A DNA stretch of 15,317 nucleotides. It comes from Bacilli bacterium (lineage in GTDB: Bacteria; Bacillota_I; Bacilli_A; Haloplasmatales; Haloplasmataceae). Made by a program: the position numbers and the translations under genes. This document shows positions 3,747-14,913 of this stretch, piece by piece. The notes under the pieces were generated by a model, which saw only the letters and a program-made list of their open reading frames with translations, was not told the origin of the DNA and searched no databases. The DNA lies in the NCBI GenBank assembly GCA_012513195.1, contig JAAZCR010000310.1, positions 1 to 15,317 on the forward strand. Reading direction: 5' to 3'. Each line of letters opens with the position of its first letter. Position 1 is the first letter of the stretch.

Positions 3747-3778
3747 GATAGTGATAAATGTAATAGGAAGTGATGACA

Positions 3779-4333
3779 ATGATTAACCCTTCACTATATA
3801 ATGACTTTATTAATTACGTGAATGAGAACCATCAGTTAATAACTTATTTAGATGAATCGCAATCGGTATTAAATGATTATGTAGGACATATAATTAAGGC
3901 GTTATATTATCTTAATAAGATTTCTGAAGAAGATGAAGATGTAAATAAAGAAATTGAGGATGTTTTTCAATTTGGTGTCAATTATTTGTTTGAAAATATT
4001 GAGCAAATCAAGTTGTATTTACGCCAATTAAACAATGATTATCAACTTCTAGATAAGATGGCTTTTTATATTAAAGTTGTTTTTGATTTAGAAGAACTAA
4101 AACTAGAAATTGATAAAGTTAGTGATATTGACCAAGATGAGAAAGAGCGAGATATTAAGATTATTGATGAAATCCTTGAATTTTTCGAAGAAAACATCGT
4201 TCCCGATGTGACTTTTAATGAGTTAGAATTAGATAATTATTTACGTAGTTACTATGATATGATTGATAAATACCGCGATATTCCTCTTACTGCAGAAGCA
4301 TTTATGGAGTATTGTGCGTCCTACGGAATTTAG
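3779..4333 (+). CDS. Acidic, helix-rich protein of unknown function
   Basis: I do not recognise this 184-residue protein. It is very rich in Asp, Glu, Ile and Leu, has no signal peptide, no hydrophobic segment long enough to span a membrane and no cysteine motif (a single Cys near the C-terminus). The periodicity suggests an all-helical cytosolic protein, with the strongest acidic run near residues 50-62 and another amphipathic stretch at about 105-140. Three in-frame starts are possible (GTG 3770, ATG 3773, ATG 3779). AGGAAG at 3765-3770 overlaps the first and gives normal spacing only for ATG 3779, so that one is chosen. The stop codon TAG lies inside the truB ribosome binding region, so the gene is probably translationally coupled to truB and in one operon with truB and ribF. 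Function is not inferred. Confidence 0.75.
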   Translation: MINPSLYNDFINYVNENHQLITYLDESQSVLNDYVGHIIKALYYLNKISEEDEDVNKEIEDVFQFGVNYLFENIEQIKLYLRQLNNDYQLLDKMAFYIKVVFDLEELKLEIDKVSDIDQDEKERDIKIIDEILEFFEENIVPDVTFNELELDNYLRSYYDMIDKYRDIPLTAEAFMEYCASYGI

Positions 4334-6212: not shown

Positions 6213-6262
6213 TATCGAAGCTTAACGAAGCTCCGACGTAGGTTTCGATAATTGCGACAATT
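6213..6262 (+). promoter_or_regulatory. Structured rpsO leader, candidate S15 autoregulatory RNA
   Basis: TATCGAA (6213-6219) pairs with TTCGATA (6244-6250), enclosing hairpin GCTT-AACG-AAGC (6220-6231) and a small CC...GG element (6233-6242), which together draw a three-way junction. A further hairpin AATTG-CGA-CAATT (6250-6262) ends five bases before the GAAAAGGAGG ribosome site. S15 binds a three-way junction in 16S rRNA, and several bacterial rpsO leaders mimic it to repress their own translation. The pairing is seen; the regulatory role is inferred. Confidence 0.55.
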
Positions 6263-6283
6263 TTGAGAAAAGGAGGATATATT

Positions 6284-6553
6284 ATGGCTTTATCAAAAGA
6301 AGAAAAAGCGCAAATTATTAAAGATTTCGCAATTCACGAAGGCGATACTGGTTCAGTTGAAGTTCAAATTGCGATTTTAACGCATGAAATCAATCGTATC
6401 AATGAACATTTAAAGAATCATCCTAAAGATTTTCATACCCGTCGTGGATTGTTAAAGAAAGTTGGTAGACGTAAGCGCTTATTAACCTACTTAAGGGTCA
6501 ACAATTTTGAAAGTTACCGTAATGTAGTTGAAAAATTAGGACTTCGTCACTAA
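6284..6553 (+). CDS. rpsO: 30S ribosomal protein S15
   Basis: S15 is a primary 16S rRNA binding protein of the small-subunit platform and forms an intersubunit bridge. The 89 residues match the family throughout: [12 protein letters not shown] start, [11 protein letters not shown], an [22 protein letters not shown] segment containing the conserved His/Asp rRNA-contact region, and [14 protein letters not shown] 6284 is chosen over the in-frame TTG at 6263 because it has an excellent AGGAGG (6271-6276) and gives the normal N-terminus. The gene has its own promoter, a structured leader and a strong terminator, so it can be controlled apart from truB-ribF and pnp. Confidence 0.98.
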
Positions 6554-6708: not shown

Positions 6709-8799
6709 ATGAGCGAGAAAAAAGTATATGAACTTGAGTTTGCAGGTAGGAAGCTTGTTGTTGAATATGGTGAACTTGCAAAACAAGCTAACGGAGCTGT
6801 TTTGGTCCGTTATGGTGATACTGTTGTTTTATCAACAGTAACTTGCTCAAAAGAGCCCAAGGACTTAGACTTCTTTCCGTTAACTGTTGGATATGAAGAA
6901 CGCTTATATGCTGTCGGTAAACTCCCTGGTGGCTTTATCAAACGTGAGGGACGTCCCACGGAACATGCTATTTTAGCTGGGAGATTAATTGACAGACCAA
7001 TTCGCCCATTATTCCCTGAAGGTTTTCGGAATGAAGTTCAAGTCGTCAACATAATTTTATCAGTTGATCACGATTGTTCACCAGAAATGACCGCGATGTT
7101 TGGTTCTTCACTAGCATTAATGATTAGTGACATTCCCTTTAATGGACCGATCGCTGGTGTATATGTTGGTCGAGTTAATGGTGAATTAATCATTAATCCT
7201 ACAGTTGAACAAAAAGAACATTCCGACATTGATCTAGCAGTTGCAGGGACAAAAGATGCAGTAAACATGGTTGAAGCAGGTGCTGACCAAGTACCTGAAG
7301 AAGATATGCTAGAAGCAATTATGTTCGGTCATCAAGAACTACAAAAACTGATTGAGTTCCAAGAAAAGATCATTCAAGAAGTTGGCAAACCAAAGATGGA
7401 AGTCGTATTATACGAAGTTCCTCAAGAAATCAATCAACGTGTTCGTAATCTATCTGAAGTAGAACTCAAAGAAGCAATTCGTACCGCTGATAAACTCGAA
7501 AGAGAAGCTAAAATTGAAGAAATAAATCAAAAAGTAGTCGCAATCTTTGAAGGTGAAGAAGCAGACGAAACGACGACTAAACAAGTTAAAGAAGGTCTCC
7601 ATGATATTCTTAAAGAAGAAGTCCGTCGTTTAATCACTGAAGAAAAAGTTCGTCCTGATGGTCGTAAGTTGGATGAAATTCGGCCTTTGTCAAGTGCCAT
7701 CGATGTTTTACCCAGAGTACATGGTTCTGGTTTATTCACAAGAGGACAAACTCAAGTTTTATCAGCCTGTACACTAGGCTCAATTAGCGAATATCAAAAA
7801 CTCGATGGTCTTGAAGAAGAAGAAATGAAACGCTTCATGCACCATTACAACTTCCCACCATTCTCTGTAGGCGAAACAGGTCGTTATGGCTCACCAGGTA
7901 GACGGGAAATTGGTCACGGTGCTTTAGGCGAACGGGCATTAAAATATGTAATCCCTGATGAAGAAGAGTTCCCTTATACAATCCGTTTAGTATCAGAAGT
8001 ATTAGAATCAAATGGTTCAACATCACAAGCATCGATATGTGCATCAACGCTCGCATTGATGGCAGCTGGTGTACCAATTAAAGCACCTGTAGCTGGTATT
8101 GCGATGGGACTTGTTAAGAAAGATGAGAACTACACAATACTCACTGATATTCAAGGTCTAGAAGACCATCTTGGTGATATGGACTTCAAAGTTGCAGGTA
8201 CAAGAAAAGGTGTTACCGCAATTCAAATGGATATTAAGATTGAAGGTATTACGAGAGAAATCCTTAAAGAAGCGCTTGAACAAGCAAGACGCGGTCGCAT
8301 GCAAATCTTAGATCATATGATGACAACAATTGCGGAACCACGCAAAGAATTATCGAAATACGCTCCTAAAATTAAATGCATTAGAATCAATCCTGAAAAG
8401 ATTCGTGATATCATCGGACCTAACGGCAAACAAATCAATGCGATTATCGATAAGACTGGTGTTAAGATTGATATTGAACAAGATGGTAGAGTCTATATCA
8501 TGCATCAAGATGTTAAGAATATCGATGAAACCATCAAGATAATTGAAGATATCGTTCGTGAAGTTGTAGTCGGTGCTGTTTATACTGGAAAAGTAACACG
8601 AATTGAAAAATTCGGTGCCTTTGTGGAAATCTTCCCTGGTACAGAGGGATTAGTACACATCTCACAACTTGATAAGAATCGTGTCGCAAAAGTTGAGGAT
8701 GTCGTTAAGATTGGCGATGAAATTCTTGTTAAAGTTACGGATATTGATGAGAAGAATCGCATTAACTTATCCAGAAAGCAAGCATTATCAGGAGAGTAA
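6709..8799 (+). CDS. pnp: Polyribonucleotide nucleotidyltransferase (PNPase)
   Basis: PNPase degrades RNA 3' to 5' using phosphate, releasing nucleoside diphosphates, and can add tails in reverse; it forms a trimeric ring. At 696 residues it is full length. It shows a first RNase PH-like domain ([12 protein letters not shown] near 36, [14 protein letters not shown]) and an all-helical linker at about 215-310. The second RNase PH-like domain has [19 protein letters not shown], the phosphate-binding GSTSQAS stretch and the metal-binding Asp pair in [19 protein letters not shown] domain has IIGPNGK at 568-574, and an S1 domain lies at about 622-690 ([23 protein letters not shown]). ATG 6709 has AAGGAG (6695-6700). 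It sits between rpsO and a membrane gene as in the Bacillus order, and a terminator overlaps its stop codon. All catalytic motifs look normal. Confidence 0.98.
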
Positions 8800-8847: not shown

Positions 8848-9708
8848 ATGGCTAATAACTCTTTTTATGAATTTGCGAAGAATTATGACTATGAGATTCA
8901 TAATAACATCGCTTATGGTAAAGTAGATGATTACTTAATCACACTTTATCAAGATATTAAATATAAGATGATTATAATTCCCCTTCCTAAAATCACTGAT
9001 ACAGAAAAGAAACAATTAATTGATTATTTAAAATTCCGCAAAAAGGATTTACCAAGGACATATGCTTATTTTGACAACCGTGTACTAGTTGTAAAAATCA
9101 AGGAACCCTTTGTCCAAATAATGCTCAATCAATTAATACAAATTTTTGATATCATCATCGGTTATATTAAAGACAATAACATTAGTCCCGGAAAAACTTG
9201 TATTATCTGTGGTAATGATGGAGCTTATGAAACGATTAAAATTACGAATATAGAATACTATTATCATCGTAATTGTTATAATAAAGTTCTTAAAGAAATC
9301 GATGAAGAAAATGAAGAATTAGCCCAAGAACAGGAAAAACCGTCTTACAATGGGTTCATTGGAGCATTAATAGGTAGTATGCTCTTTGGAGTTTTATGGG
9401 CAATCTTCTATGAAAAAGGGCTAATTCCTGCTTTATTCATGTTCTTCCTACCAACTATTGCTCTTCGGTTTCATCAAGCATTTAAAGGAAAGATATCGAA
9501 GAATTTGGTTAATGAAATTATGGGAGCCAACTTCTTAGTGCTTTTTGTGGTGATTGTTGTGATTATAATCAGGGCGCAAATTAATCTTGCTGAACTCTTT
9601 GCGAAAGAAAACCAACCAGTAGTAACTAATATCTTTATTGGTTTAGCGATGACTGTATTTGGAAATTTGATGTTAAGAAACAGATTTAAAAGGTACATGC
9701 AACAATAA
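8848..9708 (+). CDS. Membrane protein with C2HC zinc site, function unknown
   Basis: I do not recognise this 286-residue protein. Residues 1-110 look like a soluble alpha/beta domain. A likely zinc site follows: C118-x2-C121-x18-H140-x2-C143, inside CIICGNDG and YHRNC. Then comes an acidic linker (about 147-164) and four probable membrane segments at about 169-189, 192-208, 229-245 and 261-277, ending in a basic tail. There is no signal peptide, so the N-terminal part and zinc site are probably cytoplasmic. ATG 8848 has AAGGAG (8835-8840). The pnp terminator ends 21 bases upstream and leaves no room for a promoter, so expression probably depends on read-through or a promoter inside pnp. In Bacillus this position is held by ylxY-mlpA-ymxH, none of which this resembles. 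Confidence 0.75.
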   Translation: MANNSFYEFAKNYDYEIHNNIAYGKVDDYLITLYQDIKYKMIIIPLPKITDTEKKQLIDYLKFRKKDLPRTYAYFDNRVLVVKIKEPFVQIMLNQLIQIFDIIIGYIKDNNISPGKTCIICGNDGAYETIKITNIEYYYHRNCYNKVLKEIDEENEELAQEQEKPSYNGFIGALIGSMLFGVLWAIFYEKGLIPALFMFFLPTIALRFHQAFKGKISKNLVNEIMGANFLVLFVVIVVIIIRAQINLAELFAKENQPVVTNIFIGLAMTVFGNLMLRNRFKRYMQQ

Positions 9709-12351: not shown

Positions 12352-13089
12352 ATGTTCGGTAAGATCATTACTGAAATGCTGACCCCTTTAACTTCGTGTA
12401 ACGATATAGATTTAGATGTATTACAGGATTATTTAAGTTATCTATCTCAGAATTATACCGATTCGTTAATAATTAATGGTGAATTGAGCGAATTTGACAA
12501 GTTAACATATAAAAATAAACTAGCATTTGTAGAAAAGGTTGTTGCTTTAAAAAGTGCTAAAATGAAGATTTTATATCTTATTGATCGAAAAAACACATTT
12601 CTAGATAAAATCGATAAGTATATAGATGGATATATTGTAAAAAATAATCCACAAGATATAAAACAGATAAGCAATAAACCATTCATGATATATAATCCAG
12701 ATTTAAACATGATTAATAAATATAAGATACAGCATATTATTCTTACTAAAGAAAACATAACATTAATCACAAGATATAAGAAACAATTTCCTGATGTTAA
12801 TATCTACATTAATAAACCAGAATTCATGTTTACTGGATTAATACATGGTATTGTAACACCTATGAGTAATTTGTATGGTGATACTATTCATTTATTGATG
12901 CAACTGATAAAAAAGAAGGAATATGAATTAGCTCATGACTTGCTCTTCATTTATAAAGCACGATTTACATTATTAGAAAATTATTCAAATAAATCAAACA
13001 TATTCAAATCAGCTTTAAGTAAGATTGGTATAGGTTTTAAGGTTCATAATATTGCCAAAAAGGAGTTATTAAGGTTTATTGGAGTATAA
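12352..13089 (+). CDS. DapA-family protein lacking catalytic residues
   Basis: Its position after dapG and its N-terminus identify it as a 4-hydroxy-tetrahydrodipicolinate synthase (DapA) homologue: FGKIITEMLTP, then a TDSLIINGE strand aligning without gaps to the DapA strand that leads to the TTGE motif. However, Thr-Thr-Gly of that motif is Glu44-Leu45-Ser46. The stretch around Tyr114 (FMIYNPD) keeps the tyrosine-asparagine but not the PGRT that follows. The segment matching AIKEASGD reads ILTKENIT, so the Schiff-base lysine aligns with Thr132 unless a one-residue gap recruits Lys133. The GTGSNNT loop is gone and the protein is 245 rather than about 290 residues. The frame is open and has a good ribosome site (GGGGTGAG, 12341-12348, containing the dapG stop), so it is probably a translated pseudoenzyme. 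Another true dapA would be needed for the pathway. Confidence 0.75.
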   Translation: MFGKIITEMLTPLTSCNDIDLDVLQDYLSYLSQNYTDSLIINGELSEFDKLTYKNKLAFVEKVVALKSAKMKILYLIDRKNTFLDKIDKYIDGYIVKNNPQDIKQISNKPFMIYNPDLNMINKYKIQHIILTKENITLITRYKKQFPDVNIYINKPEFMFTGLIHGIVTPMSNLYGDTIHLLMQLIKKKEYELAHDLLFIYKARFTLLENYSNKSNIFKSALSKIGIGFKVHNIAKKELLRFIGV

Positions 13090-13143: not shown

Positions 13144-13192
13144 AAAATACATGAAATGATTTTAATCCATACTATATAAAGCAAGAAATAGA

Positions 13193-13227
13193 AAGGAAGG
13201 TGAAGTCCGTATTGGACTTTCCACGTG
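13193..13227 (+). promoter_or_regulatory. Unusual translation start: Shine-Dalgarno, hairpin, GTG
   Basis: AAGGAAGG (13193-13200) is the only strong ribosome site, but the GTG start is at 13225, 24 bases further on. Between them AAGTCC (13203-13208) pairs with GGACTT (13214-13219), loop GTATT, with a closing G-T wobble. Folding removes about 19 bases and would bring the site to about 5 bases from GTG. An in-frame TGA at 13201 and no other start codon after it exclude an upstream start. Confidence 0.5.
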
Positions 13228-14913
13228 AGTAAAGATAAAAGTGTTAAAATTAAAATCTTTGCGTTAGGTGGCATAGGTGAAACTGGAAAAAACAATTACA
13301 TTGTTGAAGTTGATTCCAAAATTTTTATTTTAGACGCTGGTTTAAAATATCCTGGTGAAGATTTACTAGGAGTTGATGCGGTAATACCCGATTTTAAATA
13401 TTTAATTGAAAATAAAGAGCGTATCGTTGGTTTATTTTTATCAAATGCTCATGAAGAGCATATCGGTGCCGTACCTAATTTATTAAAAGAGGTCAATGTT
13501 CCTGTTTATGCTACTCGTTTTACTATGGCATTGGTTGAAGATGCTTTACGTGAAATGGGTGAAGATGTAAGTAAATATAAATTGAATGTGATTAAGCACA
13601 CTAATGTGCTTCAATTTGATGATGTAACTGTATCATTTTTTAGTACCACTCACAGTATACCTGACAGTATAGGTATAAGCATCAATACAAGTGACGGTGC
13701 GGTTGTTTATACTTCGAATTATACTTTTGAACAAACCGTAGAAAAACGTTATCAGACGAGTTATGAACAAATTGTTCAGTTAGGGAAAAAAGGTGTTTTA
13801 GCTGTATTATCGGACAGTTTATCTGCTCATAATGTGGGACATACGACTGGGGAAAGTTTCTTTATCTATGAAATTAGTAAATATATTTCACAATCTCCTA
13901 GTCGGGTTATTGTCTCAGTATACTCATCGGATTTACAACGGATTCAAAAAATTATAAATGTAGCGAATGAGCACAACAAAAAGATTGCGATTATTGGGCG
14001 CAAGATGCAACGGATTGTTGATATCGCTGTCAAAATGGGATATCTTAAGTTTCCGACACCTGGAATGCTAGTTAATTTAAAATATATCGATGAGACCAAC
14101 GACAATAATTTACCAAACTTGGTAGTACTGGCGACAGGTGAACGGCATGAGCCATTTGATGCGTTAATAAGAATGAGTCGTAAACTTGATCGCTTAATTA
14201 ATATTGAACCTACTGATACCATTATTATCGCTAGTCCTGCTGTACCTGGTACGGAAATCAAAGCAGCTCGTACTCTTGACATTCTTTATCGGACAGGCGC
14301 TAAAGTCATCACGATCAACAAGAGTTATTTACCTTTACCGCATCCCTCCGCAGAAGATATCAAATTAATGATAAACTTACTTAAACCCAAATACATTATT
14401 CCCATTATCGGTGAATATCGTCATCAGTATGCTCACACAAAATTAGCGGAAGAAATGGGCTATGATACGGAAAACATCATAATCCTTGATAATGGTATGG
14501 TAGCTGAGTTTGAACAAGGGGAGTTAGTAAGTATTAGCGCAGATTTAGAGGTTGACCAAATCTTAGTTGATGGCTTAAGCGTAGGCGAAATCAGTAGCGT
14601 GGTATTAAAGGATCGGGTGCTCTTAAGCCAAGATGGTATCGTCTTAGCGATAGCTACTTTAGATGCGAAAACCAAGAAGATTATCGCTGGTCCTGAGATC
14701 GTTTCCCGCGGTTTTATCTATGTCAAGGATAATGAGGAAATGATTAATGAAATCTCCCAAATCATGGTTTCAACGATAACTGAAGGCACCACTAATCCAC
14801 GCACTCTTGATATGAATAAACTTAAGAATGATATTAAAGATAAGATTAGTAAGTATTTATATAAAGAAACAAAACGTAAACCGATTGTAATGCCAATTAT
14901 AAATGAAATTTAA
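13225..14913 (+). CDS. rnjB: Ribonuclease J family protein with degenerate active site
   Basis: RNase J enzymes are metallo-beta-lactamase/beta-CASP nucleases that mature and degrade RNA; J1 and J2 form a complex in Bacillus. The 562 residues match end to end: FALGGIGETGKN near residue 12, ILDAGLKYPGEDLLGVDAVIPD, the beta-CASP domain in the middle, LKPKYIIPIIGEYR and a full C-terminal domain (IVSRGFIYVKD). The metal site is damaged. The usual HGHEDH reads NAHEEH (74-79), so H74 is Asn and D78 is Glu; H143 in THSIPDS remains; the Asp of TGDFK is Asn165 (TSNYT); the His of PxHGE is Ile395. Four of seven ligands are thus changed. Position after the dapA-like gene equals that of rnjB in Bacillus, whose J2 is also degenerate and weakly active. 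A structural partner role for a J1 encoded elsewhere is likely. The start is GTG. Confidence 0.9.
   Translation: MSKDKSVKIKIFALGGIGETGKNNYIVEVDSKIFILDAGLKYPGEDLLGVDAVIPDFKYLIENKERIVGLFLSNAHEEHIGAVPNLLKEVNVPVYATRFTMALVEDALREMGEDVSKYKLNVIKHTNVLQFDDVTVSFFSTTHSIPDSIGISINTSDGAVVYTSNYTFEQTVEKRYQTSYEQIVQLGKKGVLAVLSDSLSAHNVGHTTGESFFIYEISKYISQSPSRVIVSVYSSDLQRIQKIINVANEHNKKIAIIGRKMQRIVDIAVKMGYLKFPTPGMLVNLKYIDETNDNNLPNLVVLATGERHEPFDALIRMSRKLDRLINIEPTDTIIIASPAVPGTEIKAARTLDILYRTGAKVITINKSYLPLPHPSAEDIKLMINLLKPKYIIPIIGEYRHQYAHTKLAEEMGYDTENIIILDNGMVAEFEQGELVSISADLEVDQILVDGLSVGEISSVVLKDRVLLSQDGIVLAIATLDAKTKKIIAGPEIVSRGFIYVKDNEEMINEISQIMVSTITEGTTNPRTLDMNKLKNDIKDKISKYLYKETKRKPIVMPIINEI

Follow-up and report, generated by a model that had tools for sequence, protein, structure and literature searches.

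The protein encoded at positions 13225..14913 on the forward strand of the window, by which we mean the whole 15,317-nucleotide stretch of Haloplasmataceae DNA analysed here, is by sequence comparison an RNase J2 orthologue (rnjB-type; an open reading frame of 562 amino acids with a GTG start), and its metal site is broken. It is probably a non-catalytic partner of the RNase J1 of the same cell. According to this model, J2 would pair with J1, which would do the cutting. J2 itself would hold no catalytic metal and hydrolyse no RNA, and it would keep both the heteromer with J1 and an RNA-binding groove (Y42, Y233 and R259), thereby stabilising, positioning or tuning J1. The metal site retained by an active J2 from another species (site 1, defined below) is, by sequence, broken in five of the eight members of the window's family, by several separate changes.

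The gene and its J1 paralogue

The window protein has the full RNase J architecture, with the Pfam models RNase_J_C, RNase_J_b_CASP, RMMBL and Lactamase_B all exceeding their cut-offs, the weakest of them, Lactamase_B, barely (24.5 against 22.7). The RNase J family profile TIGR00649 scores 518.3 bits against a cut-off of 400, and the RNase J1 profile NF047419 scores 543.9 bits, below its cut-off of 820. The C-terminal domain (14602..14910, forward strand; PF17770, E 6e-30) retains all eight of its J1-conserved positions. Retention of such positions is 28 of 45 in the N-terminal lactamase part, 18 of 33 in the beta-CASP domain and 12 of 16 in the C-terminal lactamase part; Staphylococcus epidermidis J2 keeps 34, 21 and 11 of the same positions, along with all 8 in the C-terminal domain. 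Relatives titled Haloplasmataceae are 72-75% identical to the window protein.

Alignment with J1 and J2 sequences, which the earlier note had proposed as a check, places the protein with the J2 enzymes. In a tree of 48 picked sequences, built without the ligand and pocket columns, it joins S. epidermidis J2 with support of 100/100, and its family is monophyletic at 100/99. Trees of 157 and 81 sequences agree with this placement; the members of the 81- and 48-sequence trees were hand-picked, and Bacillus subtilis J2 is absent from the trees. A phylum-wide search yielded genomes of the window's own class alone and contributed no J2 from Bacillus or Staphylococcus. Counts from the trees exclude exact duplicates and proteins that trimming left with fewer than 480 residues (partial, split or with in-frame stops), the window genome's split J1 among them. 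The J2 counts given below are of sequences among the matches listed, with near-copies counted separately, and do not describe the class.

The earlier note had also suggested a search for a second, intact RNase J in the genome, and one is present, in two contig-end pieces (C173 from position 9487 to the contig end, and an end piece on C252). The larger piece contains HGHEDH, TGDFK, GSQGEP, SGHAGQ and PVHGEYR, all intact. The congener, a metagenome-assembled genome (L033), encodes a full-length J1 that matches B. subtilis J1 at E 7e-240. Across the eight genomes of the order, rnjB is open without stops in every one, and every one also has a J1 with seven ligands, that of the window genome being split.

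A third RNase J with seven ligands occurs in four of the eight genomes of another family of the same class, f11, among the matches listed (L047, L049, L158 and L159). Two of these third copies branch as sister to the whole J2 clade (join 100/98 in the 48-sequence tree), and the third RNase J of f11 is perhaps an undegraded early J2 copy.

Metal ligands in the family and in other J2 proteins

The seven ligand positions were set by alignment with B. subtilis J1, for which the published ligands are H74, H76, D78, H79, H142, D164 and H390 (PMC7864078, PMC5383250). One metal is held by H74, H76, H142 and D164 (site 1) and the other by D78, H79, D164 and H390 (site 2) (PMC7864078, PMC5383250). The window protein reads NHEHHNI at these positions (N74, H76, E78, H79, H143, N165 and I395), against HHDHHDH in 43 of 43 J1-type sequences, a set that includes two PDB references and the four third copies of f11. 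It lacks the HHDHHDH set of a two-metal beta-CASP nuclease, and with N74 and N165 it also lacks the site-1 set of an active one-metal J2 (H74, H76, H142 and D or E at 164).

The earlier note had described four of seven ligands as replaced (N74, E78, N165 and I395) and H76, H79 and H143 as retained, and this was accurate to the residue. NAHEEH, in place of HGHEDH, is encoded at 13444..13461 and contains N74 (codon AAT, 13444) and H76 of site 1 and E78 (GAG, 13456) and H79 of site 2; this and the following features are on the forward strand. H143 (13651..13653) is the equivalent of the site-1 ligand J1 H142, and is Tyr in the congener and Ser in a more distant family member, L008. N165 (AAT, 13717..13719) replaces J1 D164, which contacts both metals, and I395 (ATC, 14407..14409) replaces the site-2 ligand J1 H390. 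Two motifs that the note had read as altered prove to be so: GERHE for GSQGE at 14137..14151 (residues 305-309), in which R307 is Arg in all eight family members, and LPHP for SGHG at 14335..14346 (residues 371-374), in which H373, corresponding to J1 H368, is kept and S366 and G367 are replaced (the roles of J1 S366 and H368 are taken from PMC7864078). Since N74, E78, N165 and I395 all recur in the congener, whose protein is 91% identical, assembly error is unlikely. L004, with a trimmed protein the same as that of L033, probably represents the same genome.

S. epidermidis J2 (PDB 6k6w) resembles the window protein in clade, in domains, in its degraded site 2 and in the presence of a J1 paralogue. 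Its ligand positions (HHHAHEQ) also differ from those of J1 at four of seven, yet site 1 is kept: the protein is reported to bind one Mn via its H76, H78, H80, H144 and E166, equivalent to J1 positions 74, 76, 78, 142 and 164, and to be active (PMC7864078). A bare count of changed ligands therefore says little. The earlier note's proposal that this lineage has gone further than Bacillus RNase J2 does not hold as such a count, but it does hold for site 1, two of whose four ligands are replaced in the window protein together with both pocket motifs, which read GMQGE and SSHG in S. epidermidis J2. The authors of the S. epidermidis study suggest that the metal is perhaps more structural than catalytic, and regard the one-metal site in other J2 proteins as remaining to be determined (PMC7864078). 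They also cite work in which matching the B. subtilis J2 motif to that of J1 abolished its residual exonuclease activity (PMC7864078), which indicates that odd motifs can work.

Among the 105 listed J2 sequences outside the family, 85 have an intact site 1 (H, H, H, D/E), against three of eight inside it. One ligand is missing in 18 of the 105 and two in 2. All seven positions considered, four differ from HHDHHDH in 9 of these outside sequences and five in 2. The equivalent of J1 H390 is His in 5 of them and Ile in 38; as judged from the alignment, I395 and the altered phosphate pocket typify most of the group's J2 clade, not the window lineage specifically.

Within the family, site 1 is intact in L005 (HHDHHDI), L006 (HHEHHDI) and L010 (with E165). 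One of its ligands is missing in L034 and L035, and two are missing in the window protein (N74 and N165) and in L008 (S143 and S165), the latter also having N78. The congener misses three (N74, Y143 and N165), and of the seven ligands keeps H76 and H79 only. H76 and H79 are kept in all eight members and H143 in six. Whether the substitutions are conserved in relatives, as the earlier note had asked, depends on the position: I395 is found in eight of eight, E78 and N165 in four each, and N74 is common to the window and congener only. The substitution set, as aligned, is not family-wide, given that L005 and L006 keep site 1.

On the family tree, parsimony assigns six changes to site 1 (one at position 74, two at 143 and three at 165), one of which is D165E, which may work. 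Conservation-matched positions show 0.92 changes on average, and the excess at site 1 has P = 0.00023 (100000 draws), a value to be read with the caveat that it was the finding that led to the choice of this family. An alternative pool, of positions at least 90% conserved, gives 0 of 100000 draws and is not a fair comparison for positions 143 and 165. In the J2 part of the picked 81-sequence tree, site 1 switches between intact and lost at least nine times.

The J2 proteins of f11 are 50-59% identical to that of the window and share with it a TG-x-R pocket, with I, T or N at position 395. Unlike the window protein, five of the eight keep HHDHHD, and the site-1 losses in this family, in L091 (N143) and L092/L093 (Q74), are separate. 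Another separate line of loss is found in 11 J2 proteins assigned by title or grouping to Erysipelotrichaceae, Holdemania or Anaerorhabdus (L037, L038, L041-L045, L140, L152, L156 and L174). Position 143 is Q in 10 of these proteins and E in 1; they also have V79, and two of them have N76.

Possible functions of the protein

Degenerate J2 partners are already known, and a search of the open-access literature found no natural J2 in which the remaining metal site is also lost. The rate of change of rnjB was compared with those of its neighbours. Between the window genome and the congener, rnjB has a dN of 0.053 and an NG86 dS of 1.78, which is saturated, as dS by this method is for most of the genes, beyond its reliable range. 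Eight of the 14 window genes are comparable, as the L033 stretch does not reach the other six. The dN values are 0.023 for pnp (partial), 0.031 for ftsK (partial), 0.043 for dpaB and 0.083 for dapG, and the faster neighbours are an unknown gene (0.145), dpaA (0.166) and the dapA-like gene, dapA2 (0.356); J1 has 0.027 over 432 codons. The rnjB gene is constrained about like dpaB and ftsK, and the whole protein is under purifying selection. Taken together, the dN of 0.053 and the NHEHHNI set give the combination expected of a pseudoenzyme, in which ligands are lost and purifying selection is kept.

The residues that would form an RNA-binding groove are also retained. Positions F42, F231 and R257 of J1 read Y42, Y233 and R259 in the window protein, and across the family they are Tyr in seven of eight (one His), Phe or Tyr, and Arg in eight of eight. 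They match the stacking residues reported for Streptomyces coelicolor RNase J, F52, F241 and R267 (PMC4652760), the numbering being converted by a constant offset of ten inferred from D88 = D78. The window protein may thus still bind RNA. Variation within the family is highest in the C-terminal domain, where 48 of 122 positions are invariant and the number of changes per site is 1.38, compared with 0.80-0.96 in the other regions. Because of this variability, and because the domain's eight kept positions are few, the predicted J1 binding rests on orthology. The same variability, along with the ability of position 78 to bind metal, reduces confidence in a non-catalytic partner.

Mutants of other J2 proteins offer useful comparisons. 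In S. aureus, J2 with H76A/H78A is reported to grow like wild type and deletion of J2 to be harmful, and the authors propose that the active site comes from J1 and that the part played by J2 is mainly structural, with minor J2 activity not excluded (PMC3937233). This case is like that proposed for the window protein, with site 1 broken, the protein kept and the active site supplied by J1; it differs in being engineered, the window protein being natural and carrying other substitutions. In Enterococcus faecalis, J2 with H69A or H71A reportedly loses all or most of its activity and keeps J1 binding; the activity of J2 is needed for pili, and its exonuclease activity is far below that of J1 (PMC5383250). 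Streptococcus mutans J2 is reported to be potent in vitro, with a catalytic centre nearer the J1 consensus (PMC6759994). Both of these are J2 paralogues beside a J1, like the window protein, but unlike the reading proposed for it, both are reported to be active nucleases.

The E. faecalis result also bears on the most serious alternative, which is nonetheless improbable: that the window protein is a weak one-metal nuclease with a rearranged site, made up of H76 and H143 with N165/N74, or of H76, E78 and H79. With H76, E78, H79 and H143 still present in the window species, loose binding of a metal is conceivable, and the family-wide counts for H76, H79 and H143 given above are in keeping with it. 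S. epidermidis J2, moreover, is reported to work with one metal despite differing at four of seven positions, with position 78 as a ligand. However, the congener has only H76 and H79 left and L008 has N78, S143 and S165, and the family shows no rebuilt site shared by its members; in E. faecalis J2, Ala at the equivalent of H74 or H76 is reported to kill or greatly reduce activity (PMC5383250).

It is less probable again that the protein is a pseudo-nuclease with a role independent of J1, such as an RNA-binding regulator that uses the GxRxE pocket. The invariance of R307 in the family, the recurrence of a TG-x-R-x-E pocket in much of the J2 clade, the kept stacking positions and the variable C-terminal domain would all suit such a role, but J1 co-occurs in all eight genomes of the order, and J1-J2 association is known biology (PMC3937233). 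General decay of the gene following loss of function is very improbable, for although the upstream dapA2 is missing active-site segments and changes rapidly, and although J2 is less conserved in the family than J1 (276 of 562 positions are identical across eight sequences, against 343 across seven), rnjB is open in all eight genomes and its dN, with dS saturated, is about seven times below that of dapA2.

A metal site broken more than once in a gene that stays open and constrained suggests that a non-catalytic J2 can be worth keeping. A more doubtful extension of the preferred reading is that J2 proteins of the Haloplasmataceae type are metal-free subunits with a selected role of their own, as an RNA clamp or an allosteric gate for J1, with the GxRxE pocket of the clade replacing the 5'-phosphate sensor; the J1-J2 complex would then have the active sites of J1 only, and the lost J2 site would be free to vary. 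The case bears on the question of why a second RNase J, weak or dispensable, persists in Firmicutes: the active site of J2 is reported to be dispensable for growth in S. aureus (PMC3937233), and the activity of J2 is reported to matter in E. faecalis (PMC5383250). The lineage would offer a natural, testable split between the structural and catalytic roles of J2.

The surrounding locus and the rnjB leader

The neighbouring genes are, in order and by their presumed names, pnp, an unknown gene, dpaA, dpaB, dapG, a dapA-like gene, rnjB and an ftsK/spoIIIE-like gene, with a presumed PNPase-like gene at 6709-8799. This arrangement resembles the B. subtilis order, dapG-dapA-rnjB. As expected of a J2 locus, rnjB lies near the presumed pnp and J1 lies elsewhere, on other contigs. 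In S. aureus, PNPase and J2 are SAR1250 and SAR1251.

The name of the dapA-like gene (12352..13089, forward strand), which lies upstream of rnjB, is supported by a DHDPS domain match. The gene is shortened, and its dN between the congeners, which are 56% identical here, is the 0.356 given above, about 7-fold above that of rnjB. In the window's genus it has GELSE for GTTGE, is without the YYNKP and NIPSRT segments and is about 45 amino acids short; in the remaining six genomes of the family, the dapA copy at this locus is longer and has both segments. A separate dapA that exceeds the curated cut-off is found at C161 in the window genome. Two genes in the window, at 8848-9708 and 3770-4333, are without a Pfam match, and the former is 75% identical in the congener and seemingly has membrane segments when inspected by eye.

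The rnjB leader (13190..13219, forward strand) consists of an extended Shine-Dalgarno sequence at 13190-13202 and a hairpin in which 13203-13208 pairs with 13214-13219; the 3' end of the hairpin is 5 nt upstream of the GTG start. The leader pattern, with up to two mismatches allowed, occurs once in the window genome. A hairpin between the Shine-Dalgarno sequence and the start is present, with its sequence much changed, in six of eight members of the family (the window, L033 and L005-L008) and six of eight of f11 (L011-L013 and L089-L091), and ends 5 to 8 nt upstream of the start across these 12; none was seen in the leaders of L009, L010, L092 and L093. Pairing would loop out 22 to 69 nt of spacer, measured from AGGTG or AGGAGG onward.

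When the leader segments are folded by themselves, z is -2.8 to -7.1 in 11 of the 12, and the L008 leader, whose Shine-Dalgarno sequence was missed by the script, gives -1.84 over a longer stretch. With more flank, the values are -1.83 for the window, -0.54 for L033, -0.83 for L006 and -4.19 for L005, so that those of L033 and L006 are weak. The congener's leader is without the outermost hairpin pair. In f11, the outer stem pairs in 43 of 48 cells, against 11 to 35 when slid, and L091 is one base out of register. The leader matches no Rfam family at gathering score, and it has the look of a translational control element or of a spacer that is looped out. As an alternative to the hairpin, a short upstream reading frame was considered and rejected, as its frame and stop vary, by eye, between relatives. 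Elsewhere in the window, an ordinary ribosomal S15 leader (RF00114) is found at 6231-6340, before rpsO.
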